Of a stretch of DNA of 29,885 nt, positions 7,301 through 25,300 are shown in pieces. Below the pieces are notes generated by a model. That model made no database searches and was not told where the DNA came from. It was given only the letters and a program-made list of their open reading frames with translations. Source of the stretch: a virus. Both the position numbers and the translations under genes were made by a program. The stretch is taken from IMG/VR virus record IMGVR_UViG_3300030110_003674, positions 1 to 29,885 of that record. One strand, given 5' to 3'. How positions within the stretch are numbered: the first letter of the stretch is position 1; every line of letters begins with the position of its first letter.

Positions 7301-10300
7301 ACCTATAGGAATTAATACAGTTAATAATACAATTAATTTTAAAAATCATGGATTAAATGATGGAGATAATGTATTATATTCAAATGATCCTATTAGTGGA
7401 TCTAATAAAGATATTACAGGTTTAACTACATCTACTGGTATAACAACTACATCAATTCACTATAAAGTATTAAAAATAGATGATAATTCCTTTAGTTTAT
7501 CAAATAGTGGTGTTGGTGGAACAATAACTTCATTCTATGAAAGAAGAAAACCCATAGAGATTACATCCATAGGAGCAGGAAGTAGTTATCATAATTTCTA
7601 TTATCCTCCTATTGAAGTTTCTATAGATTATACTTCTGCTGGAATTGGTAGTACATCCTTTTCTGTCACATTAACACCATTAGTAAGAGGTAGTATTATT
7701 GATTCATATGTTTATGAATCTGGTGCTGGTTATGGATCTACTACATTAAATTTCCAGAAAAAACCTTCAGTAACTGTAAATAATGGTAAAAATGCAGCAA
7801 TGGTTCCTGTTGTTGTAGGAGGGGAAGTTAAATCTGTAAATATTCAATTTGGTGGACAACAATACACATCAATTCCAGATTTAATAGTTAGTGATATTAG
7901 TGGAAGAGATGTATTGGGTTCTGGTGCTGAATTAAGACCTGTTATTAGTAATGGAAAGATAACTGATGTTAAAATAATTAATACAGGTATTGGATATTCT
8001 GATACAACTATACATACATCAATTTTAGTTAAATCTGCAGGATCTGATGCATCCTTTGACCCAATAATTAGGTCATTAGATGTCAATAATGTTGAAAATA
8101 GACGTGATAGTTCATCACCAATTAGTGAAATTTTTGAAGAATCTTCAAATAATTTAGAATATTCAGTTTCTGGTTATTTTGAAAAGTTAAGAGACTCATT
8201 TAAGGATAATGTAAATTCACCTTCAGGTATAATTGGATGGGCTTATGATGGAAATCCAATATATGGTTCATATGGATATGATGATCCTTCAATTGCTAAT
8301 AATTCACGAAGATTACTTACTGGTTATGTAAAAGACATCACTAATATTTCTGATAGACCATTGGGATTTGATGCTGGATTCTTTGTTGAAGATTATAAAT
8401 TTCTTGATAATGGTGATCTTGATAAGTATAATGGTAGATATGCCAAAACATTAGAATTTCCTAATGGTGTTTATGCTTATTATGCTGCAATTGATTTGGA
8501 TGGAAATCCTGAATTTCCATATTTTATAGGTGAATGTTATAGGTCTAATACTTTAGAAGAAAATAAAACTCTTGATCAAACATTTGATTTTAATAATTCA
8601 GACTTACTTAGAAACACTTTTCCACATAAAATATCTGATGAATTTGCTAATAATGATTTTATTGTTGAAACAAATGAAATTACAAGACAAAAAACAGTTA
8701 TTGAGTCTGTAACTGATGGATTTGTTAATAATTTTGAAATTATTAGTAATGGTAGTAATTATAAAGTAAATGATAATGTATCATTTGATAATACAGGTAC
8801 AAGTGGTAGTGGATTAATTGCAAAAGTATCTTCAATAGAAGGAAAAGATATTACAACAATAGAAACTAGTGTAGAGAATTTCCCAACAGCAACATTTACA
8901 TATGTTAATGATGAGAATATAAAAGTTACTATTCTTCCACAACATTCTTTAAGGAATAATGATGATATTATAATTTCTGGACTTAGTACTTATCTAACTG
9001 AGTTAAATGGATTTCACAAAATAGGAATTACTTCATATTACTCAAATTTAATTTCTCCACTTGGAGCAGGAGCTGCTACAACAGAGGTATATGTAAATCA
9101 TATTCCAAATGACGTTTCTATTGGGTCTAGTATTGGAATTGGACCAGAAACTGCAAAATTATTAGATATTTACAGAAATCTTAATATACTTAGGATTGAA
9201 AGAGGATTACCTGGTACTTCTCACAGCATATCTACAAAATTAGAATTTAAACCAGATTCATTTACAATTCCTAAAAAAGTAGATTATTTTGAGTCTTCTA
9301 TTAATAAATTAGCATATTTTAATGCTAGAGAGTCTGTAGGGGTTGGTAGTACAGCTGGTGTAGTTGGATATACAACAACGTTTGATTTTGGAGATTCTCA
9401 GGTTACAAGAAATATTCAAACTAGATCAATTTATATTGAAAATCACCCATTCGAAACTAATGAAGCAGTTACTTTAACTGTACCTACTGGTGGTGCTCTT
9501 GCAATTTCAACAATTGGTATTGATGCTATTGGTGTAATAGCACCATTTAATTTACCAGCATCTGGACTTACTACTAATGTGTATGTTGTTAATAAGTCAG
9601 TAAACACTATTGGAATAAAGACTGGTATTGGTACTGATCATAATGGTAATGAATATGAAGAAGTTTATTTCCGTAATACTCCAGGTCAATTAGTTGATAA
9701 TGATAAGTATCTATTAGAAACACAATTTATTCAAAAACAAGGGGTAATTGATAGGGTTAATACTGTCGTTTCTGTTTCAACTTCTCATGAATTGGTAGTA
9801 GGGGATAAAGTAAATTTAAATGTTATACCAAAACTTTCTGTTGGTATTGGTACAACATCTACATCTGTTGCTGTTAAATGGGATGACAATATTAATCATA
9901 TTACTATCAATCCACGTATTATAGATGCTTCTAAGATTAATACAACATCTAATCAATTAGAAATACTTAGACATAACTTAAATACGGGAGATAGAGTTAG
10001 TTATTCATCAACATTACCTATTTCTGGTTTATCTACAAATACTTATTACACATTTAAAGTTGATGATAATAATATTAAACTTTGTGATACTCTTATAGAT
10101 TCTAATGCAAATCCACCTACTGTAGTAAGTTTTGCAAGTACAGGTGGTCAGAGTCATACAATAACTCCAATTAATCCAAGAATTACAGTAACTCAAGGTA
10201 CTAATTTAGTATTTGATTTATCAGATTCTTCATTAAGTGGCCATTATTTAAAAATCTATCATGATAATAAATTTAATAATGAGTTTGTTTCTACAGGAAC

Positions 10301-13300
10301 AACTGAAGGGTTTACTATAACTGGTATTGATACTACTGGTGGAGTAGTAGGTGCTGCATTAACAATTAATTATAATACTGAAACAACAAATATATTACCT
10401 AAAAAATTATATTATACTTTAGAAAAATCTGGATATTTAAGTACTGCAGATACTTTAGTAAATAATCATTCTGAAATATTATTCATTGATAGTACATATA
10501 CTAAAGAGCATGTAATTTCTGGGGTTGGTAATACTACATTTAATATTGCTTTAAGTAAAATTCCAGAAAGATTATCTTATGCTTCTTCTGAGTGTTCTAC
10601 AATAAAATATAATACAAATTCTACAAGTGCACAAGGATCTATATCAGATATTCGTATTATTTCTGGTGGAACTGGATACAAAAAATTACCAGATTTCTCC
10701 ATGGTAACTTCTACTAATGGAGTAAATGCTTTAATAGTTGCAAAATCAAATACTATAGGAGATGTAAAAAAAGCAAGAATTATTAATGAGGGATTTGAAT
10801 ATTCATCAGATAAAACTTTACAACCAAATGCTGATATATCTCCATTAATTACTATTAGAGATTCAAATACTATAGGAATTGTTACAGTTGTTAATGGTGG
10901 AAAAGATTATACCACCCCTCCTAATATTGTGATTGTTAATGATGATAGTGGTAAAATAATTGATAGTGGAATTTTAGAAGCAAATATAGTAGGTAATTCT
11001 ATTGATAGTGTTAATATACTACAATCCCCCAAAGGACTGTCGGAAAAAACATCAAAATTATATGCTACTAATAATACTAATGGAATTAGTATTGTTGAGG
11101 TATCATCTCCTTCTGCAGGTATTGGAACCACATTTACATGCACCATAACAACTCCAGTACTTGGTTTCCCAACACCACCATTTAAAATTGGAGATAAAGT
11201 ATTCATAGAAGGAATACAAAAAGTTGGTGCTGCAGGATCTGGATTTAATTCTGAAGATTATGGATTTAAATTCCTTGAAGTTGGTCTTTATGATACAAGT
11301 GGAACCAAAGATGTTGTAACAATTAATGTAGTTGGATTAACAACCACTGTTGGTGTTGCTAAAACAGTTCAAGATTCATTTGGAACTATAATACATGAAG
11401 ATGATTATCCATCATTCACTATCACACAAAAACAATCTGTTTTCTTAATTGGTGAAAAAATTATTAGTGATGGTATAGAAAGAAACTTATTTATTGCTAA
11501 TATCGATGTAAAAGGATATATTAAAGTAAATGGTAGTTATAATTTATCTCTAAATGAAGTTATTACTGGTAAAGAATCTGGATCTATAGCAACAATAGAC
11601 AGGATTATCGATAATTTTGGAAGATTTAAAGTTAATTACGCAAATAAAAAAGATATTGGTTGGGAAGATAATATTGGAAAATTGAATGAAGATTTTCAAG
11701 TAATTCCAGATAATGATTATTATCAAAATCTTTCATATACAATTAAGAGTCCAATTACATGGGAAGAATTTAGCAGTCCTGTTAATAATTTAGTTCATAC
11801 TAGTGGAACAAAGAATTTTTCAGATACTGGAATATCTTCAACTGCAACTGTTGGTATTGGTAGTTCAAGTGCTTCAACTATAATAAAAGATCTATTTGAT
11901 GAACGTAGAGTAGATACAGTTTATGAATATGATTTGGTTAAAGATATTGATTTAGTTGGTGGGTCTTCTAAATTCTTAAGTTTTAAAACTAAAAAATTAA
12001 CAGATTATACTCTTGCTAAAACTAATGCAGTTTTAAAAATAGATGATATAGATGATTTATTTTCCAATTTATCTAATGATCCTAAAAGTTATCTAGATCT
12101 TTTTAAATTACCTTCAACAATTACATATGATAATATTTTAATAAGAGTTAATGAATCTTTTGATAATACCAATCTTCAATTAACAGATTTAGTTATTCTT
12201 AACAATGGAACTAATAGTTTCTTATTAGAAAAAGGAAGTATTAATAATGTTGGAACAGCAATTACTCATGCGGTAAATGAATCATATGGAACATTTTCAA
12301 TATATGTTGATGATTATGATGATAGTTATTTAAGATTTACACCTCGTGATCCTATTAATATTGATTATGATTTAAAATATATTAGATCTACTTTTAGTTC
12401 TGCCTCTAGTGGAATAGGAACTACGTCAATTGGATTTGTTGATTTGACTGCAGCTGCCATAGGAGTTGCTTCAACTACATCAGCATCTGGAATAACTAGT
12501 TCTATTATAGGTGTTGGTACTCATAAATTTAATTCATTATATGTTAATACTCAAGTTATTGACAATGAAACTAATGATATGAATTTTGTTGATATATATT
12601 TGACTCATGACGGAACTAATACATATCTTTCTGAATATTATTTTGATTCAGAATCACAAAATTATTCTGGATCTCTCATAGGTTCATTTAATGCTGATAT
12701 TACTTCGGGACTATTATCATTAAAATATACAAATGATACTGTAAATGGAGTTACTCTTAAATCTAAAATTGTTGGATTTGGAACAACATCTGTTGGTGTT
12801 GGTACCTATAGATATAAGTTAGATGAACAGGATGATGGTCAAGAAAGAACAGCAATATATCAATCACATTATGAAACTACCACTGGTGCTGCTGCAACAA
12901 CTGTATTTACTGTAGATAAGAATTTATTCAATACAGTTAAATCATCAGTTGAAGTTGGTATGGGAGCATCTAAATCTCTACATAAACTTTTAACTATTAA
13001 TGATATTCAACAATCTAATGTGTATGTGCAACAAGGACCTTTCCTTTCTGTAAAGGGTAATGGTATTGGAGCAACTGATTCTCAAAGTGGAATGGGAACA
13101 TTTGGTGGTTATTATTCTGGTGATAATTTTATCTTAAAATTCTTCCCAGATGCATCAATGACATCTGAACTTAAAGTTTCCTCATTTAATGAATGTTTCT
13201 ATACTACTGTTGATACCGTTAATATTCCACCAGATCATACTTATGGAAATATTACAGAATCTTTGAATGTTGATCAATATAATGGACTTGAAGGAAAAAG

Positions 13301-16300
13301 AGTTGAAAGAACGGAATTTCCTCTAAGTTTTAATAATGATTTTATTTTTGCTAAAGTATTTAATCCTAAAAATGCTACACAATTGAATTTAAGCACAGGA
13401 TTATTTACTTTAAAAAATCATTTCTTTAGCACAGGTGAATCATTAAAATATACTCCTAAGTCTACATTTGTTGGACTTGGATCAACTGCAATGACTGATA
13501 ATAGTGGTACAGTTATACCATCTACTGTTTTTGCAATTAAAGTTGATGATGATAGTTTTAAAATTGCTACATCAAGAAGTAATGCAGATTCTGGAACAAA
13601 TGTTTCTTTTGGATCTTCTGGTGAAGGAAATGCACATGAACTTTCAATGGTCAAATCCAATGAAAAGTCTGTTATAACAATTGATGGTATACCTCAATCT
13701 CCATTAATTTTCACTAAAGTTGCACATACTTTATCTGGAAATAGTGGTGGTCAAATTAGTGCATCATCTACAATATTCTCTTTAAGTGGAATAGGAACAA
13801 TAAATCCATCAGACATTTTAAGAATTGATGATGAATATATTAAAGTTGTAAATGTTGGACTTGGAACAACTGCAGTTGGACCAATAACTGGTGCAGGATC
13901 ATCTACAATAGTTGAGGTTACAAGACAAATTTTTGGATCAACAGCAGCAGTTCATACTGATACAACAACTGCTAGACTTTATAAAGGATCTTATAATATT
14001 GTTGGTAAGAATATTCATTTCATTGAACCACCTAAAGGAAATCCATCAATTGTTAAAGATGAAAGTAATTTAGATCCTCCAAAATCTGATTTTACTGGAA
14101 GGGTATTTTTAAGAAGTAATTATGATACAAACCAAATATACGATGATATTTCTGATGAATTTACTGGTATTGGTAGAACATTCACTTTAACCGTAGGTGG
14201 AGCAAATACTGCTGGAATTGGAAGTACTGGTGGTAATGGTATTTTGTTTATTAATAGTGTATTTCAAACTCCTACTACTATTAACAACCCACTCAATAAT
14301 TATAGTTTGGATGATGGAGATCAAATTGCAGGAATAACAACTGTTACATTTACTGGCATAGCAACAAATGATGGATCTTCTGGAGGTGGAGAAGTTTTCA
14401 CTTCTATAAGTGATGTGAATGTAAATCAATTACCAAGAGGAGGTGTTGTTGTTTCCTTAGGTGCTTCTGGTGGATTAGGATATGCACCTCTTGTTGGATC
14501 TAAGGTAAGACCTACATCTGATACAACTAGGTCTATTACAAGCGTTGTTGGATTTGCTACAACTGGTTCAGCACTTTCAATTAGCACTGCTTCATATGAT
14601 AATACAACTGGATTAATGACAGTTACCACTTTAAAGGAACATGGATTTGTTCTTGGTGAAACAAATGAAGTTACTATGGTTGGACTTCATTTTGCATGTG
14701 CTGCTGCCCATTCTGGTGTAACTACCACTATATTCCCAGATGTTATTAATGACAGACCATTTTCTATTACAGGAATTTCTTCTATTAATACATTTACTGC
14801 AGATGTTGGTATATGTACTATTCCACATAATTATGTTGGTCAAGGAACTGTATTTTCTTGGTATGGTGATTTAACATATGGTCAGGGATATAATAATATT
14901 ATTTCTATTGGAGTAGCAGTAACAGATAAAGGATATGATCATAAATTTGTGAGTGCTGATAATAATTCAATTCTTGTTGCTGGAGTGGGTGCTTTAACAC
15001 CTACAGATGCATTCTATGAATCTCATTCGGGTAGATTGATATTAACTATCAATAACCATGATCTTACTACTAGTAATGTAATAGGAATTGGTACTCGTTC
15101 ATTATTATTCACATGTTCTAGAGATAATCATTCAACTTCTCACACATATCCAAGAGCTGGGGCAACTCCAAGTTCTTCTATCGGAGATCCAATACACAAT
15201 AATATGGCAATACCGATTGTAGCAACTACAACAAACACTATAGAGGTTAATGTTGGTGCTGCATCAAGTGGTAGTGGTGCTATTATAACAGCACATCCAG
15301 TTGGAGTTAATACACACATATTTGTAAGTGGAACAACTGGTGGTATTAGAAGACTTAGTGGAACACCAGGAAACCTTACAGCACTAAATGGAACTTTATA
15401 TGAACCCACTACAGGTGTATTAACTATTAAAAGTGGATCTCACAGTCTTAGTGCAGCAACAACTAAAAATATAACTGGTGCTCTTTATACAGCCACAACA
15501 GGTATAATGACCATCACTTCATCATCTCATGGATTTGATAATGGTGATTATGTTAAGATTGTAAATAATTCAATAATATTTACATGCGATAAAGATGGTG
15601 GAGTTAGTAATCATTCATACCCAAGAATAACTGATCCAATTTATAATAAGTGGATAGCAATTGCAAACAAAACCACTAATACATTTGAATTACAAGTTGG
15701 TATTAGTACCGCAGGAAATTATACACATACTTATGTTGGTGGAACTGCTGTAAATGCTATTAAAAAAGCAAATAGTTTTATTGGAATTTCTACAGGATCT
15801 ATAATATTTACATGTGCTCAAGATAGTCATAAGACTATTCATCCATACCCCAGATCAACTGATCCATTTAATTGGAGTGATGGAAAAGTATTAGGAGTTG
15901 AAACTGTTGCGTCTGCAACTTTATTCACGGTAAATGTTGGTAAATCTGCAAATGGAAGTGGTGGTGCATTGACATATAATATTGGTGCTGCTGGAACAAA
16001 TTATACCAATCCTAGAATATTTGTTTCTGATCCAAGTTATTCTGATCTTTCTGTTAGGGGAATATCACGTTTAACAGGTGGAGATGATGTTGGGTCAGGT
16101 CTTCTTGTTGATATTAGTGTTTCTGGTGCTTCAACTGTTGGAGTAGCTTCTGATACGTTTGAAGTTAGTAAATATGATATTTCTAGAAATGGTTATGGAT
16201 TTAGACGTGGAGATATAATTGAACCTATTGGATTAGTTACTGCCAGAACATTACAATCTCCAATATCAAAATTACAATTAAATATTGATGATATTTATTC

Positions 16301-17795
16301 TGATACATTTGCTGCATGGCAGTTTGGTGAATTTGATTTTATTGATCCTATTCAAAAATTCCAAGATGGTTCAAGAACAAGATTCCCATTATTTTATAAT
16401 AATCAATTATTGAGTTTTGAAGCAGAAGTAGATTCTTATATTGATCTTCAAAACTTATTGTTTATCACTATAAATGGTATAATTCAAGATCCAGGAGTTG
16501 CTTATGAGTTTGATGGTGGAACATCATTTGTCTTTACAACAGCACCAAAAGAGGAAGATAAAGTTGCAATATTCTTCTATAGAGGGACAAGAAATGTTGA
16601 TGATACTTTAGTTACTGGTATATCCAAATCTTTAGAAAAAGGTGATACTGTAAAGGTTATTAGTAATAATTCTATTCGTGGAACAAAAACACAAGATAAT
16701 AGATTTATATTTGACTTATCAAGTACAGATAAAATTGAATCTAATGTTTATTCTGGAATAGGAATAGATGATCAAAATTATAAACCACTTAGTTGGAGTA
16801 AGAAAAAGAGAGATAGAATGATCAATGGTGAATTGGCATCTAAATCAAGAGATTCTATAGAATCACTCATATTCCCAACAGCAAAAATAATTGGTAATAT
16901 TGATACATCACAAACTTCAATATTTGTTGATAGCACAGAATTATTTGATTATGATTCTGCTAATGATTTCTCAGGATTAATAGTTTCTGAGGATTCATAT
17001 CCAGTTTCTGCTGCTATAACAGCTACGGTATCTGCTGCAGGAACTATTTCTGGATTGCATATTACTGATGGTGGAAGTAATTATATTACAGCACCTAATA
17101 TTTTAATCACAGCACCTGCTTCTCAAATTGGAGTCGGTATTGGTACAACAGCAACAGCAACATTGAGTATATCTGGAGTTGGAACTGTAAATGGATTTGC
17201 AATTACTAATTCTGGGTTAGGATATACAGTTGCACCAGATATTTTAGTTTCTCCACCAAATCCAACTATTGAAAATATTAGTAGTATTGATGTTATCCAA
17301 GGATTCTCTGGAATTGTAACTGGTGTTAGTGCAACAACTGTTGGTGTTTCTACTTTAGGATTTACTTTCAATTTGAGTAAATCTAATTCAACATGGACTG
17401 GAATGGATGTAGGAAATCCAATTTATATTTTTGAAACTAATGTGGGACATGGTGGAACATCAATTGATAATACAGGAAGTGATTCTGCTGTGGTTGGTGT
17501 TGGAACTACATTCTTAGATAATATATACATCATTCAGCATGTAGAGACATCTGGCACTACAGGTATTATTACCTGTCTTATGGCAAGTAATCCAGTTGGA
17601 ATTGCCACTACAACAGGCACACAGACCCTTGGTAAGTTCTCTTGGGGTAAATTAGGTGGAATCAGTAGATCTTCTTCTCCAGTGTCTATAGAAGTAACTG
17701 GTAACACCATAGATGTTGGAATAACAACGTTCCCAACTATACAAAGAAGAGGCACTGGATTGAGAAGTACTGGTGCCCTTCCAAAACTATTATAA
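4380..17795 (+). CDS. Giant modular baseplate/virion structural protein (4471 aa) at the gp7 position
   Basis: A single uninterrupted frame of 13.4 kb lies between gp6 and gp8, where T4 has gene 7 (about 1030 aa). The N-terminus (1-260) looks like a wedge-binding domain: PKSIDFLKQYYTSQEYQGG and later EAQSFYQSKGTNESIRILFN, a pattern seen at the start of many marine phage baseplate proteins. After that it is a mosaic of beta-rich modules: GG-x-GY repeats (near 764, 953, 1105-1210, 1442, 2086-2189, 4260-4330), NG/TGD-type modules (634, 863, 980, 1858, 3000), a YHYH-like domain (1264-1386), FTC...YPR modules (3577-3825), and a conserved C-terminal part with INGIIQDPG and FYRGTRN (3971-4195). Many GIGTT/GVGTT turns act as linkers. 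No catalytic domain, signal peptide or membrane segment is seen. Its role is inferred as wedge component plus outer baseplate or adhesin layer; orthology to gp7 rests on position. Confidence 0.85.
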   Translation: MIQTGFESRIKIQQIINNQLPEFILDESPKSIDFLKQYYTSQEYQGGPVDIAENLDQYLKVDNLIPEVIVDNTTLESDINSTDTTITVNSTKGFPSEYGLLKIDNEIITYTGITSTTFTGCKRGFSGITSYHSDLNQEELIFSDSSKESHIANKDIKNLSSLFLREFYKKLRYTFTPGLENVDFDKSLNAGNFIKEAQSFYQSKGTNESIRILFNVLYGVTPSIVNLEDFLIKPSSSKFIRREIAIAEIISGDPVKLIGQTITKSTDSATSASISEVEPFTRQNKQYFKLSLFIGYDDNNYVEGNFQITPNTKSFEKVSVGSSIISVDSTIGFAQTGMVISGINSITYSDKSINQFINCSWTTSSGAGENINATDNIRSDETYFGFEDGDSSKRVELRLTGVLSDFEQISENLQVSEDDIISVKNLGDLIENPSSDKTYKEIFANSWIYNTSSSYEILNFGQTLSLTLKSDIDRSSLKLGDQVEIVQQDGLGGSGVIVYPTESSLASSAAAGVIGYPYVKTINGNSIELENFNFTPGTNTSYALRRKINKATSVNVPIQYGNGNIISDIQNLYVDKKNEYAYVASNSLPSGVSGYDVSDGFEYTYEITKKINSSSIDSVSNLTNILSNGEYSSIKFDNKAPFITGDRIQYEPSSVPISGLITGSYYVEVLPDGQSIRLYNSPSFIESEGYLNLSPSAGVFGTHTFTLYSQRSSNIGSQKLLKKFTLPVNTKNGNNELTTPGNIGMLINGVEIKNYKSHDKVYYGGIESIDVLNGGSEYDVINLPTLTVSAGIASTAFSQLVVSGSVKKVYVDQLDFDISEVNSVTVSGGNGSGAVIKPILNIRSREVSFDGRPTTNSGGITTGGYQLIFSENHYFTNGQEVIYDSNNNDPIGVGIGTSTLSNGGHYFTSIDNNLTVKLYESFNSYSSGINTVGFTTFNTSGIHKFKTLNNKKTISRVDVIDGGDGYTNRKLIVKPIGINTVNNTINFKNHGLNDGDNVLYSNDPISGSNKDITGLTTSTGITTTSIHYKVLKIDDNSFSLSNSGVGGTITSFYERRKPIEITSIGAGSSYHNFYYPPIEVSIDYTSAGIGSTSFSVTLTPLVRGSIIDSYVYESGAGYGSTTLNFQKKPSVTVNNGKNAAMVPVVVGGEVKSVNIQFGGQQYTSIPDLIVSDISGRDVLGSGAELRPVISNGKITDVKIINTGIGYSDTTIHTSILVKSAGSDASFDPIIRSLDVNNVENRRDSSSPISEIFEESSNNLEYSVSGYFEKLRDSFKDNVNSPSGIIGWAYDGNPIYGSYGYDDPSIANNSRRLLTGYVKDITNISDRPLGFDAGFFVEDYKFLDNGDLDKYNGRYAKTLEFPNGVYAYYAAIDLDGNPEFPYFIGECYRSNTLEENKTLDQTFDFNNSDLLRNTFPHKISDEFANNDFIVETNEITRQKTVIESVTDGFVNNFEIISNGSNYKVNDNVSFDNTGTSGSGLIAKVSSIEGKDITTIETSVENFPTATFTYVNDENIKVTILPQHSLRNNDDIIISGLSTYLTELNGFHKIGITSYYSNLISPLGAGAATTEVYVNHIPNDVSIGSSIGIGPETAKLLDIYRNLNILRIERGLPGTSHSISTKLEFKPDSFTIPKKVDYFESSINKLAYFNARESVGVGSTAGVVGYTTTFDFGDSQVTRNIQTRSIYIENHPFETNEAVTLTVPTGGALAISTIGIDAIGVIAPFNLPASGLTTNVYVVNKSVNTIGIKTGIGTDHNGNEYEEVYFRNTPGQLVDNDKYLLETQFIQKQGVIDRVNTVVSVSTSHELVVGDKVNLNVIPKLSVGIGTTSTSVAVKWDDNINHITINPRIIDASKINTTSNQLEILRHNLNTGDRVSYSSTLPISGLSTNTYYTFKVDDNNIKLCDTLIDSNANPPTVVSFASTGGQSHTITPINPRITVTQGTNLVFDLSDSSLSGHYLKIYHDNKFNNEFVSTGTTEGFTITGIDTTGGVVGAALTINYNTETTNILPKKLYYTLEKSGYLSTADTLVNNHSEILFIDSTYTKEHVISGVGNTTFNIALSKIPERLSYASSECSTIKYNTNSTSAQGSISDIRIISGGTGYKKLPDFSMVTSTNGVNALIVAKSNTIGDVKKARIINEGFEYSSDKTLQPNADISPLITIRDSNTIGIVTVVNGGKDYTTPPNIVIVNDDSGKIIDSGILEANIVGNSIDSVNILQSPKGLSEKTSKLYATNNTNGISIVEVSSPSAGIGTTFTCTITTPVLGFPTPPFKIGDKVFIEGIQKVGAAGSGFNSEDYGFKFLEVGLYDTSGTKDVVTINVVGLTTTVGVAKTVQDSFGTIIHEDDYPSFTITQKQSVFLIGEKIISDGIERNLFIANIDVKGYIKVNGSYNLSLNEVITGKESGSIATIDRIIDNFGRFKVNYANKKDIGWEDNIGKLNEDFQVIPDNDYYQNLSYTIKSPITWEEFSSPVNNLVHTSGTKNFSDTGISSTATVGIGSSSASTIIKDLFDERRVDTVYEYDLVKDIDLVGGSSKFLSFKTKKLTDYTLAKTNAVLKIDDIDDLFSNLSNDPKSYLDLFKLPSTITYDNILIRVNESFDNTNLQLTDLVILNNGTNSFLLEKGSINNVGTAITHAVNESYGTFSIYVDDYDDSYLRFTPRDPINIDYDLKYIRSTFSSASSGIGTTSIGFVDLTAAAIGVASTTSASGITSSIIGVGTHKFNSLYVNTQVIDNETNDMNFVDIYLTHDGTNTYLSEYYFDSESQNYSGSLIGSFNADITSGLLSLKYTNDTVNGVTLKSKIVGFGTTSVGVGTYRYKLDEQDDGQERTAIYQSHYETTTGAAATTVFTVDKNLFNTVKSSVEVGMGASKSLHKLLTINDIQQSNVYVQQGPFLSVKGNGIGATDSQSGMGTFGGYYSGDNFILKFFPDASMTSELKVSSFNECFYTTVDTVNIPPDHTYGNITESLNVDQYNGLEGKRVERTEFPLSFNNDFIFAKVFNPKNATQLNLSTGLFTLKNHFFSTGESLKYTPKSTFVGLGSTAMTDNSGTVIPSTVFAIKVDDDSFKIATSRSNADSGTNVSFGSSGEGNAHELSMVKSNEKSVITIDGIPQSPLIFTKVAHTLSGNSGGQISASSTIFSLSGIGTINPSDILRIDDEYIKVVNVGLGTTAVGPITGAGSSTIVEVTRQIFGSTAAVHTDTTTARLYKGSYNIVGKNIHFIEPPKGNPSIVKDESNLDPPKSDFTGRVFLRSNYDTNQIYDDISDEFTGIGRTFTLTVGGANTAGIGSTGGNGILFINSVFQTPTTINNPLNNYSLDDGDQIAGITTVTFTGIATNDGSSGGGEVFTSISDVNVNQLPRGGVVVSLGASGGLGYAPLVGSKVRPTSDTTRSITSVVGFATTGSALSISTASYDNTTGLMTVTTLKEHGFVLGETNEVTMVGLHFACAAAHSGVTTTIFPDVINDRPFSITGISSINTFTADVGICTIPHNYVGQGTVFSWYGDLTYGQGYNNIISIGVAVTDKGYDHKFVSADNNSILVAGVGALTPTDAFYESHSGRLILTINNHDLTTSNVIGIGTRSLLFTCSRDNHSTSHTYPRAGATPSSSIGDPIHNNMAIPIVATTTNTIEVNVGAASSGSGAIITAHPVGVNTHIFVSGTTGGIRRLSGTPGNLTALNGTLYEPTTGVLTIKSGSHSLSAATTKNITGALYTATTGIMTITSSSHGFDNGDYVKIVNNSIIFTCDKDGGVSNHSYPRITDPIYNKWIAIANKTTNTFELQVGISTAGNYTHTYVGGTAVNAIKKANSFIGISTGSIIFTCAQDSHKTIHPYPRSTDPFNWSDGKVLGVETVASATLFTVNVGKSANGSGGALTYNIGAAGTNYTNPRIFVSDPSYSDLSVRGISRLTGGDDVGSGLLVDISVSGASTVGVASDTFEVSKYDISRNGYGFRRGDIIEPIGLVTARTLQSPISKLQLNIDDIYSDTFAAWQFGEFDFIDPIQKFQDGSRTRFPLFYNNQLLSFEAEVDSYIDLQNLLFITINGIIQDPGVAYEFDGGTSFVFTTAPKEEDKVAIFFYRGTRNVDDTLVTGISKSLEKGDTVKVISNNSIRGTKTQDNRFIFDLSSTDKIESNVYSGIGIDDQNYKPLSWSKKKRDRMINGELASKSRDSIESLIFPTAKIIGNIDTSQTSIFVDSTELFDYDSANDFSGLIVSEDSYPVSAAITATVSAAGTISGLHITDGGSNYITAPNILITAPASQIGVGIGTTATATLSISGVGTVNGFAITNSGLGYTVAPDILVSPPNPTIENISSIDVIQGFSGIVTGVSATTVGVSTLGFTFNLSKSNSTWTGMDVGNPIYIFETNVGHGGTSIDNTGSDSAVVGVGTTFLDNIYIIQHVETSGTTGIITCLMASNPVGIATTTGTQTLGKFSWGKLGGISRSSSPVSIEVTGNTIDVGITTFPTIQRRGTGLRSTGALPKLL
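6668..8010 (+). repeat. GG-x-GY protein repeats in the giant gene (first cluster)
   Basis: A degenerate unit of the form hydrophobic strand - (D/N)GG-x-(G/E)Y - x - P - hydrophobic strand occurs several times: IDVLNGGSEYDVINLPTLTV (near 764), VDVIDGGDGYT (near 955), ESGAGYGSTTL (near 1112), VNIQFGGQQYTSIPDLIV (near 1153) and VKIINTGIGYSDTT (near 1199). Units 3 to 5 are in tight succession. The pattern suggests short beta-hairpins stacking as a solenoid or small beta-sandwiches. Confidence 0.6.
8166..8541 (+). other. YHYH-like domain inside the giant protein
   Basis: Residues about 1264-1386 contain SPSGIIGWAYDGNPIYGSYG and then NGRYAKTLEFPNGVYAYYAA, followed by FPYFIG. This is the layout of the YHYH domain (DG-x-PIYG-x-YGY, then G-R, FPNG-Y-AY, FPY-x-G), an extracellular-type domain also found in cyanophage structural proteins. 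The histidines that give the family its name are replaced here (AYY in place of YHY), so any metal- or ligand-binding role may be lost. It probably serves as a surface decoration or receptor-contact module. Confidence 0.65.
10637..10947 (+). repeat. GG-x-GY protein repeats in the giant gene (second cluster)
   Basis: There are three consecutive units: IRIISGGTGYKKLPDFSMV, ARIINEGFEYSSDK and VTVVNGGKDYTTPPNIVIV (residues about 2089-2189). They have the same strand - GG-x-Y - P - strand layout as the first cluster but weak sequence identity, so they are old copies. Confidence 0.6.
14590..15905 (+). repeat. FTC-D-H-YPR modules in the giant gene
   Basis: Three modules contain a 16-residue core F-T-C-x2-D-x6-H-x-Y-P-R: FTCSRDNHSTSHTYPR (15108-15155), FTCDKDGGVSNHSYPR (15579-15626) and FTCAQDSHKTIHPYPR (15807-15854), each soon followed by DP. 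Each core follows an upstream half of the type TG-x-(L/M)-x-I-T...H-x-(F/L), for example TGIMTITSSSHGFDNGDYV. A fourth, degenerate copy (HFACAAAHS) lies near 14685. Cys and His are otherwise rare in this protein. Confidence 0.75.
16290..17795 (+). other. Conserved C-terminal region of the giant protein
   Basis: Residues about 3971-4471 hold DPIQKFQDGSRTRFPLFYNN, INGIIQDPG, a GGTSFVF segment, IFFYRGTRN, and then KSRDSIESLIFPTAKII. Two GG-x-Y/SG-x-GY units (DGGSNYITAPNILI and NSGLGYTVAPDILV) follow, and the end is IQRRGTGLRSTGALPKLL. From memory these blocks recur at the end of very large cyanophage structural proteins, unlike the variable middle. This suggests a conserved assembly contact at the C-terminus. 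Confidence 0.55.
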
Positions 17796-17816: not shown

Positions 17817-19364
17817 ATGCCAGCCGTCGTAACAGATCAATTTAGAATATTAAATGCAGGTAATTTTGTAGATTCTGTACTGGATACTAATAATTCGTAT
17901 TATGTATTTTTAGGACTTCCGAATCCAGCAAATCCTGCATCTGGTTTTGGTAGAACCACTTCAGATAATGAATGGAATACTAATACCCCAAATCCAACTG
18001 ATAATTTGCAGTATAATCATCATTATAGAGATACTGCTTTATTTGGTAAAAAAGTTACTAGCAGTAATGTTAGAAGATTGATAAGAAAGGTTAATTGGAG
18101 TAGTAATACACGTTATGACATGTATCGTCATGACTATAGTATTTCAAATCCTACACCAAATTCCAATACAAGTAGATTATATGATTCTAATTATTATGTA
18201 ATTAATAGTGATTTTAGAGTTTATGTTTGTATAGAAAATGGTTCTTCAGGATCTAATTTGAAAGGTAATGTATCTAAAGACGAACCAACTTTTACTGATT
18301 TAGAACCTACAGCAGCTGGAACAAGTGGTGATGGATATATTTGGAAATACTTATTTTCAGTTTCTCCAAGTGATATTATAAAATTTGATTCTACAGAGTA
18401 TGTTGTAGTTCCTAATGATTGGAGTACTTCAATAGATAGTCAAATTCAAAATGTTAGAGAAGCAGGTGATTCTGATATTAATCAAAATCAAATTAAAGCA
18501 ATATACATTGCAGATGGTGGTGCAAACTATTCTGCAGGAATTGTTGATATATTAGGTGATGGAAGTGGAGGAAAAGTATCAATTACTGTCAATTCTGCAG
18601 GAACAATAACTAAAGCATTGGTAGTTACGGGTGGAAGTGGATATACTTTCGGTGTAGTTGATTTAGGAACTCTACAACCTTCTGGATCTATTCCAGATCC
18701 TGCTAAATTAATACCAATTATTCCACCTTCAAAAGGTCATGGATATAATATCTATACTGAATTAGGCACAGATAAAGTATTGGTATATGCTAGATTTGAT
18801 GATTCAACTAGAGATTTTCCAGTTGATACTAAATTCTCTCAAGTTGGTATTATAAAAAATCCAACTGAATTTACTTCTTCATCTATTTTTAGTGGAAGTG
18901 ATTATTCATCTTTATATTCTATAAAACTTACTTCAACTGGTTCAACACCTACTGTTGGAGTTAAAATGGAACAAACAGTAACTGGAGGAACTGCTAAAGG
19001 TTATATTGCGTCATATGATTCTGAAACTCAAGTTATAAAATACTTCCAAGATAGATCTTTATATTTTGGAAATGAGAAAGATCAAACTGATGTTAATACT
19101 GTCAGTAGCACTTCTAAAATATTATCTTTTGAATCTTCAGGAAATAGTATTTCTCCATTTACTGGATCTGTAGATACTGGATTCAGTGGTATTAAAACTA
19201 CCATAAATTCAAAAGACGTAAATTTGGGAGTTGTTTTTACAGATGGACTTGCTAATCCAGAGATAAATAAAAAGACAGGTGATATAATTTATATGAATAA
19301 TAGACCTCTGGTACAAAGAGATTCTAGACAAAAAGAAGACATCAAAATTATTTTGGAATTTTAA
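17817..19364 (+). CDS. 8: Baseplate wedge protein gp8 with an inserted repeat region
   Basis: The N-terminal 200 residues follow T4 gp8: VTDQFRILNAGNFVDSV at the start, WSSNTRYDMYRHDYS (near 94-108), a YYVINSDFRVYVCIENG strand pair, and the signature GDGYIWKYLFSVSP (near 171) ending in TEYVVVPNDW. T4 gp8 has 334 residues; this one has 515. Part of the excess lies in residues 226-284, where two GG-x-Y units occur (YIADGGANYSAG and VVTGGSGYTFG) that match repeats of the giant protein. gp8 dimers bind the wedge outside gp7 and gp10 in T4. A late promoter lies just upstream. The start codon lacks a good Shine-Dalgarno match. The next gene follows after 6 nt. Confidence 0.88.
   Translation: MPAVVTDQFRILNAGNFVDSVLDTNNSYYVFLGLPNPANPASGFGRTTSDNEWNTNTPNPTDNLQYNHHYRDTALFGKKVTSSNVRRLIRKVNWSSNTRYDMYRHDYSISNPTPNSNTSRLYDSNYYVINSDFRVYVCIENGSSGSNLKGNVSKDEPTFTDLEPTAAGTSGDGYIWKYLFSVSPSDIIKFDSTEYVVVPNDWSTSIDSQIQNVREAGDSDINQNQIKAIYIADGGANYSAGIVDILGDGSGGKVSITVNSAGTITKALVVTGGSGYTFGVVDLGTLQPSGSIPDPAKLIPIIPPSKGHGYNIYTELGTDKVLVYARFDDSTRDFPVDTKFSQVGIIKNPTEFTSSSIFSGSDYSSLYSIKLTSTGSTPTVGVKMEQTVTGGTAKGYIASYDSETQVIKYFQDRSLYFGNEKDQTDVNTVSSTSKILSFESSGNSISPFTGSVDTGFSGIKTTINSKDVNLGVVFTDGLANPEINKKTGDIIYMNNRPLVQRDSRQKEDIKIILEF
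18494..18668 (+). repeat. GG-x-GY repeat pair within gp8
   Basis: Residues about 226-284 contain IYIADGGANYSAGIVDI and LVVTGGSGYTFGVVDL, separated by GDGSGGKVSITVNSAGTI. The layout is the same as the units in the giant protein and is not part of T4 gp8 as I know it. Confidence 0.65.
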
Positions 19365-19370
19365 AGAAAA

Positions 19371-22300
19371 ATGACACAAAAAACCAATTTAAATATTAGT
19401 CCATATTATGATGATTTTGATTCTGAAAAGAACTTTTATAAAGTTTTATTTAAACCAGGATATCCAGTACAAGCAAGAGAATTAACTTCTTTACAATCAA
19501 TCCTTCAAGGACAAGTAGAGTCCTTCGGGGGTCATATGTTCAAGGAAGGATCTGTAATTATTCCAGGTAATCTCACATATGATGGGCAATTTTATGCTGT
19601 AAAATTAAATTCTTCTAATTTAGGGGTTGATATATCTTTATACATTAATAATTTTATAGGAAAAAAAATAACAGGACAAGTATCTGGAACTACAGCAAAA
19701 ATTCAACATGTAGAAATTTCTGGTGCTAATGTAGATGATATAACAATATATGTAAAATATATAGATTCTGATGATAATTTTGTATTTACTCAATTTCAAG
19801 ATGGTGAATCTTTAAGTGCTACTGAAAATGTAGAATATGGAAATACCACAATTGTTGCAGGAACACCTTTTGCATCTTTAATATCATCAAATGCAACTTC
19901 TATAGGATCAGCAGCGTCTATTCAAGATGGAGTATTTTTTGTTAGAGGATATTTTGTAAATATTGCACAAGAAACTATAATTCTAGATTATTATACTAAT
20001 ACTCCATCTTATAGAGTTGGATTAAAGGTTGATGAAGTTATTGTTAATGCTAAAGAAGATGATTCATTATTTGATAATGCTAAGGGATTTACTAATTATG
20101 CTGCTCCAGGTGCAGATAGATTTAAAATAAGTTTATCACTTACCAAAAAACTATTAACTGATACTAATGATACTGATTTTATTGAAATTTTAAGAGTTAA
20201 AAATGGTAGAATACAGAAATTTAATTCAAAAACCCAATATAATATAATTCGTGATTATTTGGCAGAAAGAACTTATGATGAATCTGGTGATTATACAATA
20301 GATCAATTTAATCCATCAATACATAATTCTTTGAATGATAGGTTAGGTAATAATGGTGTATATTTCAATAATGAAAAAACAGAAGATGGCAATACACCTT
20401 CTGATGATTTAATGTGTCTTAAAGTATCTCCAGGAAAGGCATATGTAAGAGGATATGATGTTGAAAAAATAGGAACAACTATTATAGATGCAGATAAACC
20501 AAGAGATACTGAAATAATATCTAATTCAAGTATCCCATTTAATATGGGAAATTTATTGAAAGTTAATAATGTAACAGGAACGCCAAAACAAAGAGCAACT
20601 ATAGATTTATATAATAGATTAGTAGGTGATAGTGGTGCAAAAATAGGAGATGCAAGAGTATATACAATCAATCTTACTTCTTCTGAATATTCAAATGGTT
20701 CTACAGAATATGACTTAAGATTATATGATATTCAAACATATACCAAATTAACCTTAAATCAAAGTGTTGATGCTGATGATATTCCCACTACTGCTTTTGT
20801 AAAAGGTAAGAATAGTGGTGCTAGTGGTTATGCTGTTTATGCTGGTGGTAATAGTGAATATATTTACTTAAGACAAACTTCTGGTAATTTTGTTAAAGGT
20901 GAAGGACTAATTGTTAATGGAATAGAAATTTCAAGAATCATTAAAGAGTTTGTTGTATATGGAACTCAAAATATAAAATCAGTAAAACAAACTGGAGCTT
21001 CTGGTTATCCCGATTTCACTGCTGATTCTGTGCTTGAAAGATTCAGAATGCCTGGTAGTATTAATCAGATAACAATTCCAGGAGTAATTAGTGGAGTAGC
21101 AACAGTAGCGGCTGGAGGACTTCCATTTGCTGGTATAGGAACAGATACTATTATTTCATATCAAAGATCTGGATTTTCGACAGAAACTTATAATAGAGTA
21201 ACTTCTGTTTCTTCTAATAAATTAACAATAGGAATAAGTTCGATAGCAAATAGTGCCATTAATGGAGGAATTGGTGCTGGTGTTACTGGAGTTTTTGATG
21301 GTCAAATATTAACTGGAACAAATGATTCATTAGTTACTCCATATGCTATGGGACCTATTATATCAAATGAAGGTGGGTTGTATGTAGAATTGCCAGATTA
21401 TAATGTTTCTACAGTAGATCTTACTGGATCAACATTAACTATTTCTGAGCAAATAACTGGAGAGGCAACTGATGGTAGTGGTGAACTTACTTTCGATCTT
21501 TCATCTGTAGGAATTACTAGTGCTGCTTATGAAGCATTTGACGAAGAAAGATATTCTGTAACTTATTCAACTGGTATACAAGCACCCATTGCAAGAGATC
21601 AATTTGAACTTTCCAATAATATTATAACTATTAGAGGTTTAAGAGATAGTCAAAGTAATGTTGTAGTAGATACAACACTTAGTAAGTTTGGAATTCAAAG
21701 TAAAGTAAAACAATATAATAGGAGTGCTTCTCTTGTAGTATCTAGATCAAAATATAAGCAATCTGGAGTTGGTGTTAATACTTCAAATTCTGATGGATTA
21801 ACTTATAATAAGTATTATGGTGTAAGAGTACAAGATGAGGAAATTTCTTTAAATTATCCTGATGTAGCAAAGGTAGTATCTGTTTACGAATCATTAGATA
21901 GTTCAGATCCAACATTAGATGAAGTTCAATTTACTTCAACTGCTAGTGTTCATACTAATGCCATAGTTGGAGAACATATAGTAGGTAATACAAGTAAAGC
22001 AATTGCAAGAGTTGTTTCATCACCATCAGCAAATACGTTAAAAATTGTTTATTTGACAGGTGATAAATTATCAACTGGAGAAACTGTAGTATTTGACGAG
22101 TCTAAATTAACCACTGAAATTGAAATAATTACTTCGGGTAGTTATAAAATTATTACAGATTCTTTTTCTTTAGATAAGGGGCAAAAAGATCAATATTATG
22201 ATTATTCTAGACTTGTTAGAAATAATGGAGTTTCAGAACCTGCTAAAAGATTATTAATTGTTTTTGATTATTACTCAGTACCATCTACAGATGATGGTGA

Positions 22301-25300
22301 TGTATTCACTGTCTTAAGTTATGACAAAGAAAGATTTACTGAAGATATACCAAATATTGGACCATCTAATATAAGAGCGTCAGACACTTTAGATTTTAGA
22401 CCAAGAGTAGCAGTATTTGATCCATCAGCTACTACTGGATCACCATTTGATTTTAGTTCTAGAAATTTTGATAGTGTTCCTAAGTATCTTTTAAAATCAG
22501 ATGAATCATCAATATTAGGTTATGAATATTATTTACCTAGAATTGATAAATTATATTTGGATAAATTTGGTAAGTTTGTTGTTGAAAAAGGAATATCTGA
22601 AAAAACCCCTAAAGCACCTGAAAAGAATGATGAGTTGATGCAAGTAGCAACTATTAATCTTCCACCATATCTTTACAATCCACAAGATGCATCTTTAACT
22701 TTAATTGATAATAGAAGATTTACAATGAGGGATATTGGTTTTATTGAAGATAGAGTAAAGAATTTAGAACAAGTTACAACACTTTCTTTACTTGAGATTG
22801 ATACTCAAACTCTCCAAATTCAAGATGCTGATGGAAGAAATAGATTTAAGAGTGGATTTTTCGTTGATCCATTTAATAATTATTCATTAATGAATACAAA
22901 GTTATCTTCAATTCAAATAAATCCAGTAACAAATGAATTAATTCCTATTGTTAGTAGAAATTCTATAGCATCACAACTTGCAACTTTAGAAGTATCTATT
23001 CCTGAAAATGAAGATTTTGGTGAAAATTATCCAACTATAGATCCAAATATACAAAAAACTGGAAATGCAGTAACCTTAAAATATGAAGAAATTGATTGGT
23101 TAGAACAAACAATGGCAACAAAATCTGTCAATGTTAATCCATTCAACGTTGTTGTTTATAATGGAACTGTTGAACTTAGTCCAAGAAACGATACTTGGGT
23201 TAGGACAATTCAGTTAGAAGATAATAATATTCGTATTACTAGAAGTGATATATTTACACAAAATATTGATATTCAAGGTAGAGATGTATTACGAACAAAT
23301 CGTAGACAAGAAGGAGATAGTGGAAGAGTAACAAGTAGTAATGTTACTACAGAAGTAAGTACTAGACAAACTATTACTGAAAATGCATTTAGTGTAGATG
23401 ATGTTAATACTAGAAATCAATTAGTATCAACTGGTTCTGAATCTTTTATGAGATCTAGAAATACTGAATTTGTAGTATCAAATCTCAAACCATCCACACG
23501 TTATTATCAATTCCTTGATGGAAATAGTGGTGTTAATTTTATACCAAAATTGATTGAAATAGCAACAGATTCATCTTTAAACACCTATGGTGCTTCTGAT
23601 GCATTTTCTGTGGGAGAAACTGTTATTGGAACAGTTGATGGTGTACAATTAATCAATTTTAGAGTTTCTAGTCCTAGACATAAATTTGGACAATATAATA
23701 ATTCATCATCAATATATAATATCAACCCATATAATAAATCAGAAACTATATCTGAATCTTATAGTTCATCATCAAATATTCTTAATGTTGATACAAAATC
23801 ATTATCAAATGAAGCACAAGGTTTGTATTCTGGATATTTAACTCAAGGAATGAGATTAGTTGGGCAAGAAAGTGGTGCAGTAGCTTATGTTAAAGACTTA
23901 AGATTAATTTCAGATAATTATGGAGATATTATCGGAACATTCTTCTTAAAAGATCCAAATGCAAGTCCTGTTCCAGCAGTGAGAATAGAAACTGGAACAA
24001 AAACATTTAAATTAACTTCAAGTTCTACAAATGAACGTGGGGTTCCTGGAAGTAATGTAATTTCTTTTGCAGAATCTAGATATACTTCTCAAGGAAATGT
24101 AAATAGATGGCAGAATGAAGTAACAACAACTACAACCAATTTTGATGCTTTAACAAATGTAAATACATTCACTAATGTAACTACAGAAAATGTAGAGTAT
24201 AGTGATCCTCTAGCACAATCATTTATAGTTGGTGGAAATGTTCAAGCACCTTCAGATATTGATTTAAGTGATGATGTTAATGGTGTATTTTTAACATCGA
24301 TTGATTTATATTTTAACACAATAGATAGTGGAAATGCTCCAGTCAAGATTCAAGTAAGAACTGTTGAATTGGGATTACCGACTTTAAATACTATAGGAAA
24401 AACTGTTACTGTAAGACCTACAACAACAGATGCTAATGGAAATCTTATACCCAATATACAAACATCTACAGATGGAAGTGTTGCAACTAATGTAAAATTC
24501 CCAGAACCAATTTATTTGGCACCAGGTAGAGAATATGCAATTGTAGTTATTTCTGAAAATAGTGATGAATATAGATTATTTGCTGCTGAAATGGGTGAAA
24601 AATCTCTAGCAGATATTGATTCTAATATTCCTCCTGATGAGAATGCATTATCTGCTGTATATTCACGACAGTTTGCACTTGGAAGTTTATTCAAATCACA
24701 GAATGGTTCTATATGGTCTCCTAATCAAAGAGAAGATCTTAAATTTAAACTTTATAAAGCAAACTTTACTTCAGATACTGGAACAGCATTCTTCTATAAT
24801 CCAGATTTAAATGAAAGTAATGATTATATATTGAAATTAAATAATGATCCAATAAGAACTTTAACAAAAACTGCTACTATTGGTATTACTACTGTTCCTG
24901 GTAGTGATTCTTCATTAGTTGGAATATTAACAGTAGGACAAAAAATTGCTGGTGTTAGTGATAAAGGTGGTTCTGCTATTATTGTTGGTAGGGGAAGTTC
25001 TGTTAGTAACTTAGGAATTAAGACTACCGAAACAGGAGTTAATTATACTACCGATTCTTCTGTAGATACCTTTAATTTTGTTGGTAGTGGTTCTGGTCTA
25101 AAATTAAATATAACTAACGTAGATTCCACAACAGGAGCTATTGAAAAGGTAGCATTTACGAATGTTAAAGGTGAACGTGGAACGGGATATCAAATTGGTG
25201 ATGTTATTGGTATTGTAACTTCTACTGCTGGAAATCAAGGTTCTGGTGCTCAAATTACTATTGCAGGAATATCAACTGATATAGATACCCTATTTGTTGA

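Follow-up and report, generated by a model that had tools for sequence, protein, structure and literature searches.

The 515-residue protein encoded at positions 17817..19364 of the window (the whole 29,885-nucleotide stretch of DNA analysed here) is the gp8 baseplate wedge protein of a Kyanoviridae-type T4-like phage, and it keeps the fold of T4 gp8. Inserted into this fold is a glycine-rich module (residues 224-286, 18486..18674; all features of the window given here lie on the plus strand), which is predicted to form a small six-stranded β-barrel, its GDGxG turn flanked by two GG-x-GY units. Homology of the module with domain I of gp18, the tail sheath protein of T4, is probable; our results support it without proving it. 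The same barrel is a recurrent module of tail proteins: relatives also carry it in the protein at the gp7 position, in VrlC, gp14 and the hub lysozyme and, in the case of Stenotrophomonas phage Ps15, in the tail sheath.

The protein was matched by the Pfam family PF09215 (Phage-Gp8) with an E-value of 1.1e-12 and 48.1 bits, against a curated cut-off of 25, and over its full length by the phrog_438 profile (residues 1-515 on positions 1-478 of 478, E = 6.8e-154). Proteins of the T4 gp8 family are characterized further by a dimeric state, two copies being present in each wedge. A phmmer comparison with T4 gp8 (1n7z; whole-sequence E = 8.2e-6) aligned residues 3-202 with T4 residues 10-212, bearing out the original prediction that about the first 200 residues follow T4 gp8, and residues 482-515 with T4 residues 301-334, the latter pairing being weak by sequence alone (6.1 bits). 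An AlphaFold2 model of the whole protein had a mean pLDDT of 81, with all ten-residue blocks across 221-280 above 90. When superposed on 1n7z by VIA, this model gave a Z-score of 16.8 for 260 aligned residues at 3.4 Å and 20% identity, over a range extending from residue 12 to residue 515.

The excess over T4 gp8 amounts to 181 residues (515 vs 334), close to the figure of 180 given originally. When 15 diverse relatives were aligned by hhalign with six T4-type gp8 sequences (probability 99.7, residues 3-354 covered), the module fell opposite a gap. This gap, taken together with the superposition of the whole model, a check that had been proposed at the outset, indicates that the module is indeed an insertion relative to T4. 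It follows the N-terminal core (residues 1-202, 17817..18422), which ends in VVVPNDW, and precedes a middle core block (residues 319-349, 18771..18863), which ends in IIKNP and could be aligned by hhalign with T4 up to NPLEAK. Counted as residues 316-349, this block measures 33-39 residues in 15/15 diverse members. From VPNDW to the next core block there are 113 residues in the present protein and 98-183 in all 15 members, as opposed to about 29 in T4.

The module accounts for the extra length only in part: its insert is only about half of it, contributing some 84 of the 181 residues, whereas some 110 come from a second extra stretch (residues 350-481, 18864..19259). Here, KNP and EINKKTG are 132 residues apart, compared with about 22 in T4 (both T4 inter-anchor lengths, about 29 and about 22, were read by eye from the phmmer and hhalign alignments). 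Beyond this stretch lies the C-terminal core (residues 482-515, 19260..19361), recognized through the weak phmmer pairing mentioned above and through the superposition, which reaches residue 515.

The two extra stretches vary independently, Ps15 having 178 residues in the first and 33 in the second; across the 15 members the second ranges from 33 to 163 residues. It also changes faster than the rest of gp8, with a mean identity of 47% in the close-relative alignment. It is not a GG-x-GY module: we considered that it might be a further module copy, and rejected this when a profile made from it matched gp8 proteins only among the open reading frames of 14 loci. The same profile found no match in gp14, so that a sharing of the stretch with gp14 was discarded as well. 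Its model showed a weak structural match to β-barrels of the EF-Tu/eIF2-gamma type (VIA Z about 5, 65 aligned residues, 2.5 Å), too weak to put a name to it.

Two GG-x-GY units do occur after the VVVPNDW block (residues 196-202), as predicted: GGANY at residues 234-238 (18516..18530) and GGSGY at residues 272-276 (18630..18644), with a GDGSGG turn at residues 247-252 (18555..18572). The span reported originally, 18494-18668, corresponds to about residues 226-284. Among 20,000 shuffled versions of gp8, 22 had at least two matches to GG-x-[GN]-[YF]; when the second unit was shuffled 20,000 times, the score of one unit against the other (24 residues each) was reached 14 times. On these figures, a chance origin of the motif was rejected.

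The conservation of the units was assessed at two depths. Searches of IMG/VR returned at least 599 candidates, from which 80 loci were kept; 53 of these entered the close-relative alignment (the other 27 were partial or very similar) and 49 of the 53 entered a gp8-module profile. A wider set of 15 members, chosen for spread rather than at random, comprised the gp8 studied here, 10 phage records and four loci. Among the close relatives, G235, Y238, G247, G249, G272, G273 and Y276 were kept in 54/54 aligned sequences. In the wider set, G235, G247, G249, G251, G273 and Y276 were present in 15/15 members and Y238 in 11/15. The gp8 of S-PM2, which belongs to neither set, lacks the motif in its first unit, and the module profile still matches it. 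Mean pairwise identity of the module was 59%, vs 67% for the N-terminal core, among close relatives, and 36% vs 34% in the wide set. In the gp8 of DLP6 (L088:2776-4503), we observed an apparent extra GGSGY unit at the putative N-terminus besides the central module.

The insertion is ordinary for its group, and the protein itself is a typical representative of an established gp8 family. In a tblastn search of 50,697 phage records, relatives of gp8 occurred in 547, and in 479 of these the match spanned 80% or more of the query; the module alone was found in 451 records at E-values up to 1, and it was present in all 15 of the diverse members aligned. The gp8-module profile matched gp8 in all ten phage records tried, namely P-SSM7, Ps15, S-SRM01, S-PM2, S-PM2d, Melnitz, phiM19, S-B68, S-CREM2 and ACG-2014f. 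The module is thus not special to this phage.

Nor does it go with giant neighbouring genes. Ps15 and OLIVR5 both have the module, and the gene intervening between gp6 and gp8 encodes only 503 and 496 residues, respectively (OLIVR5 has further small genes between gp6 and gp8). The suggested comparison of gp8 lengths with neighbour size, the neighbour being chosen by gene order, revealed no correlation, either for gp8 length (Spearman 0.24, P = 0.44, n = 12 phages) or for insert length (Spearman -0.12, P = 0.72, n = 11 phages). In P-SSM7, a protein of 1375 residues lies beside gp8 and a structural protein of 7124 residues two genes further up; in S-PM2, a frame of 3048 residues does not directly adjoin gp8. 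The outcome was unchanged when other P-SSM7 neighbours were used or when P-SSM7 and S-PM2 were left out.

The idea that the gp8 insert belongs to the same repeat family as the modules of the giant neighbour, by contrast, was supported: the gp8-module profile matched the giant protein at the gp7 position (open reading frame 4380-17795) at 7824..8030 with E = 7.7e-5. A second sibling module, at 8724..8864, overlaps a match to Pfam Gp18_dom_I (PF22639; 8730-8831, E = 0.0012) that scores 13.8 bits against a cut-off of 27. We also built a pooled profile from 16 module copies (hub lysozyme, gp7-position protein, gp8, VrlC, gp14 and one sheath), which were picked from earlier matches. The region 8715-8867 of the giant is a row of this profile, as is 7824-8030, so that the pooled-profile matches there arise by construction. 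A module toward the end of this protein (17046..17240), which is not a profile row, was matched with E = 3.8e-10, and another in the VrlC-like protein (open reading frame 19371-26810) at 25026..25262 with E = 4.3e-4 and 0.061. In all, six or seven places of the 4471-residue giant match the pooled profile (6666-6725, 7707-7844, 7824-8027, 8724-8864, 10620-10691, 10878-11024 and 17046-17240).

Outside the window, the Ps15 tail sheath (L108:4197-6170) carries a GG-x-GY module at about residues 241-320, a site unlike that of T4 domain I; it likewise has two units (GGQNY and KGSGY) with a GDGTGA stretch. The S-SRM01 hub lysozyme (L109:1185-1343) and the gp14 neck protein (L092:29700-29885) contain module-like sequences, with E = 0.0105 and 0.0118 for the gp8-module profile, and by eye about four units could be counted in S-SRM01 gp14 beyond the T4-like core. 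A gene of S-SRM01 annotated as a putative tail fiber was also matched by the module profile (37318-37425, E = 0.004).

The likeness to gp18 domain I emerged from predicted structures as well as from profiles. In the model of whole gp8, residues 227-307 (18495-18737) superposed on residues 99-188 of T4 gp18 with a VIA Z-score of 6.5, over 73 aligned residues at 2.8 Å. The module was also modelled alone, from 50 sequences, giving six strands and a pLDDT of 87. In a Foldseek search with this model, three T4 gp18 chains took ranks 1-3 among 350,542 PDB chains, at E-values of 1.2-2.1 that are not significant alone. VIA gave a Z-score of 6.0 for the module alone against gp18, with 81-82 residues aligned in a loose superposition (5.5 Å), and 4.2 against the KP1 sheath (76 aligned, 5.2 Å); the best non-sheath row scored 2.3. 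A VIA Z-score below 8 may mean a common arrangement, and we gave no weight as evidence to the families missing from the VIA rows. Three PDB sequence matches of the module alone, to IgG-degrading proteases, all had E-values above 1 and were taken as chance.

At the sequence level, the gp8-module profile fell on residues 101-147 of gp18, the same stretch that the structural match selects, and its score was reached in 1 of 300 column shuffles for domain I and 2 of 300 for whole gp18; column shuffles break local order and are a mild control. The same profile found no match in the T4 genome as a whole. The wider module family provided stronger evidence: when the complete T4 genome was searched with the pooled profile, the only match was to gp18 residues 102-154, with E = 5.8e-5; aligned directly with domain I by hhalign, it yielded P = 1.3e-5, and none of 300 shuffles reached the score. 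Of five other T4-type records, three had a sheath match to this profile close to residue 100 (E = 3.6e-4, 0.007 and 0.047). In the Vibrio sheath the match lay at residues 166-196 rather than near 100 (E = 0.017), and in the phiAS5 sheath none was found. A non-sheath frame of myPSH1140 scored above the sheath of that phage (E = 0.0016), and 31.2 had a second weak place (E = 0.17).

Because the pooled profile includes rows from Ps15, one of them a sheath, we also used a profile of 14 copies from which these were left out. Its match in T4 was still to gp18 domain I only (E = 0.03), and in hhalign none of 200 shuffles reached the score. Matches were obtained in four of ten T4-type records. Those of T4, Aragogtheria and 31.2 lay at domain I of the sheath, that of myPSH1140 in the non-sheath frame only; the other six records were without a match. 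The frame in question, of 520 residues in Enterobacter phage myPSH1140 (MG999954.1, 8034-8285, minus strand), beats the sheath of its own phage in the module match, with E = 0.0016 and 0.0014. The five gp8 rows alone performed weakly, their score being reached by 7 of 200 and 15 of 200 shuffles, and they fell on domain I in another register.

In searches in the reverse direction, PF22639 matched the gp7-position protein of Ps15 at 43550-43696 with E = 2.7e-6 and 24.7 bits, below its cut-off of 27, in a stretch that the gp8-module profile also matches (43541-43768, E = 7.6e-6). In ten records and 14 control genomes, Gp18_dom_I gave matches at E-values up to 10 in six and two, respectively, and scored above the cut-off in T4 only. 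For the gp8 module of the window, no Pfam family appeared at E-values up to 10; the Gp18_dom_I cut-off was not reached, and the module is not filed as a member. The other module members gave scattered weak Pfam matches, and Gp18_dom_I was absent from the best 25 of 27 families. In the alignments, G235, the glycine kept in 54/54 and 15/15 sequences, is paired with the glycine of PGSNY in T4 gp18. This glycine is residue 107 of the T4 record when the initial methionine is counted; we take it to be G106 of gp18, since two of the three published positions agree with the record only when that methionine is left out of the count.

Published work on T4 gives these likenesses a possible meaning. Domain I of gp18 is described as a six-stranded barrel with a helix, inserted in domain II; it protrudes outward, takes no part in inter-subunit contacts, makes contact with the baseplate when the sheath is extended and binds the retracted long tail fibers, and the substitutions G106S, S175F and A178V inhibit fiber retraction (PMC3004832). 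The same source describes T4 gp8 as touching gp6, gp7 and gp10 and as serving also as a chaperone for gp6, and T4 gp8 and A511 gp105 are reported to have a common fold and to link receptor-binding proteins to the baseplate (PMC10811340). In light of these two functions, gp6 chaperone and connector of receptor-binding proteins, the original description of the wedge protein as having only structural contacts was too strong. Combining the protrusion and fiber binding of domain I with the connector role of gp8, we propose that, on a gp8 that keeps the T4 fold and would join receptor-binding proteins to the baseplate, the barrel inserted after VVVPNDW would be exposed at the surface, as suggested by its likeness to domain I, where it may dock other baseplate arms or folded fibers. 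We hold this account as a whole, the probable homology to gp18 domain I included, to be somewhat on the probable side. No baseplate structure from this phage group was found.

The likeness to domain I could instead be due to convergence, any small glycine-rich barrel of two hairpins being apt to look similar. The Foldseek E-values above 1, the module-alone VIA Z-score of about 6 at an rmsd of 5.5 and the weakness of the gp8 rows alone are all compatible with convergence. However, gp18 ranks first among 350,542 chains, with a VIA score of 6.0 where no non-sheath row exceeds 2.3, profile and structure land on the same stretch of gp18, and the pooled profile has a single match in the whole T4 genome, with 0 of 300 shuffles reaching its score against domain I. 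We regard convergence as fairly improbable, even if the differing register in the Vibrio sheath and the loose module-alone superposition led us to put less weight on the docking barrel and more on this alternative. That the two units might simply be native T4 gp8 strands, with no insertion at all, is scarcely credible: we found no point in its favor, the hhalign alignment of the wide family with six T4-type gp8 sequences sets the module opposite a gap, and the inter-anchor length is 98-183 residues in 15/15 members vs about 29 in T4.

Two further readings concern what the module does. As an internal brace, it would fill the space separating gp8 from the gp7-position or VrlC protein and stabilize the wedge, with no exposed docking. 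Its conservation in the wide family, about equal to that of the core (36% vs 34%), is what a buried contact would be expected to show; T4 gp8 does contact gp6, gp7 and gp10 (PMC3004832), and the likely partners bear the same module. Yet the length of the insert and that of the gp7-position protein are not correlated (Spearman -0.12, P = 0.72, n = 11), and gp18 domain I, which has the most similar fold, is described as protruding and making no sheath-sheath contact (PMC3004832), so that a brace appears unlikely, if worth keeping in mind. A receptor- or sugar-binding domain for host recognition seems to us quite improbable. It would fit with the report that S-PM2d gp8 is among the structural genes with early non-synonymous changes during coexistence with Synechococcus (PMC9910659), and with the profile match in the putative tail fiber gene of S-SRM01 (37318-37425, E = 0.004). 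On the other hand, the motif glycines and tyrosines are unchanged in 54/54 relatives, and the identity of the module is not far under that of the core among close relatives (59% vs 67%), unlike that of a fast-changing binder; moreover, the two deposited S-PM2 gp8 sequences are identical, and the site of the S-PM2d change was not found.

The preferred reading, an exposed docking barrel on gp8, is open to testing by way of one invariant glycine, the T4 counterpart of which is reported to matter in fiber retraction. It can be extended to the idea that the GG-x-GY module is a mobile docking domain of the tail surface, of which T4 sheath domain I would be a far-diverged copy; through its copies in the hub lysozyme, gp7-position protein, gp8, VrlC, gp14 and sheath, it might provide a common knob on the tail exterior for fibers or arms. 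We advance this wider idea tentatively, as plausible but somewhat short of likely. More broadly, a solved T4 domain suggests both a possible fold and a possible function for a glycine-rich repeat that recurs across large uncharacterized structural proteins of marine phages and, if this is right, many unnamed stretches of cyanophage baseplates would become annotatable. In the open-access literature, covered mostly at the level of abstracts, we found no paper naming the module in gp8 or tying it to gp18 domain I. In PMC7029224, gp8 and VrlC are given as common to pelagimyophages and cyanomyophages, and T4 gp7 is noted as absent.

Among the closest known systems is phrog_438, the gp8 of Kyanoviridae and relatives (S-SRM01, P-SSM2 and P-SSM7), which is matched over its full length, has the same module and shows no essential difference; S-SRM01 gp8 is 61.8% identical to the present protein by tblastn, and no domain is named in the phrog_438 records that were examined. 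T4 gp8 (1n7z, PF09215) shares the whole fold, with the N-terminal 200 residues, the middle block and the C-terminal 34 residues, and its gene occupies the same place, after the gp6 and gp7-position genes; however, T4 gp8 and the five other T4-type gp8 proteins (about 322-334 residues) have neither the module nor the second extra stretch. The gp105 protein of Listeria phage A511 and the arm protein of phage phi812 (6hhk, 9euj, 9fko and 9euf) have the gp8-type core in common, aligning with our model over 161-163 residues with VIA Z-scores of 10.0 to 11.2 at 3.0 to 3.3 Å, but comprise 172-176 residues in the structures, in which the module would not fit. Since the A511 and phi812 core proteins and the T4-type gp8 proteins are all without the module, a gain in the Kyanoviridae-type lineage is a simpler reading than a loss in T4-type phages. 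T4 gp18 domain I (3fo8 and 3foa; PF22639) resembles the module in the six-stranded barrel predicted for the latter, in being an inserted domain, and in a G-x-N/G-Y unit with the same glycine. It differs in that it sits in another protein, its sequence is too distant for a Pfam call, the second unit lacks the tyrosine in five of the six T4-type sheaths aligned, and the insertion sites differ among gp8, the Ps15 sheath and T4 gp18.
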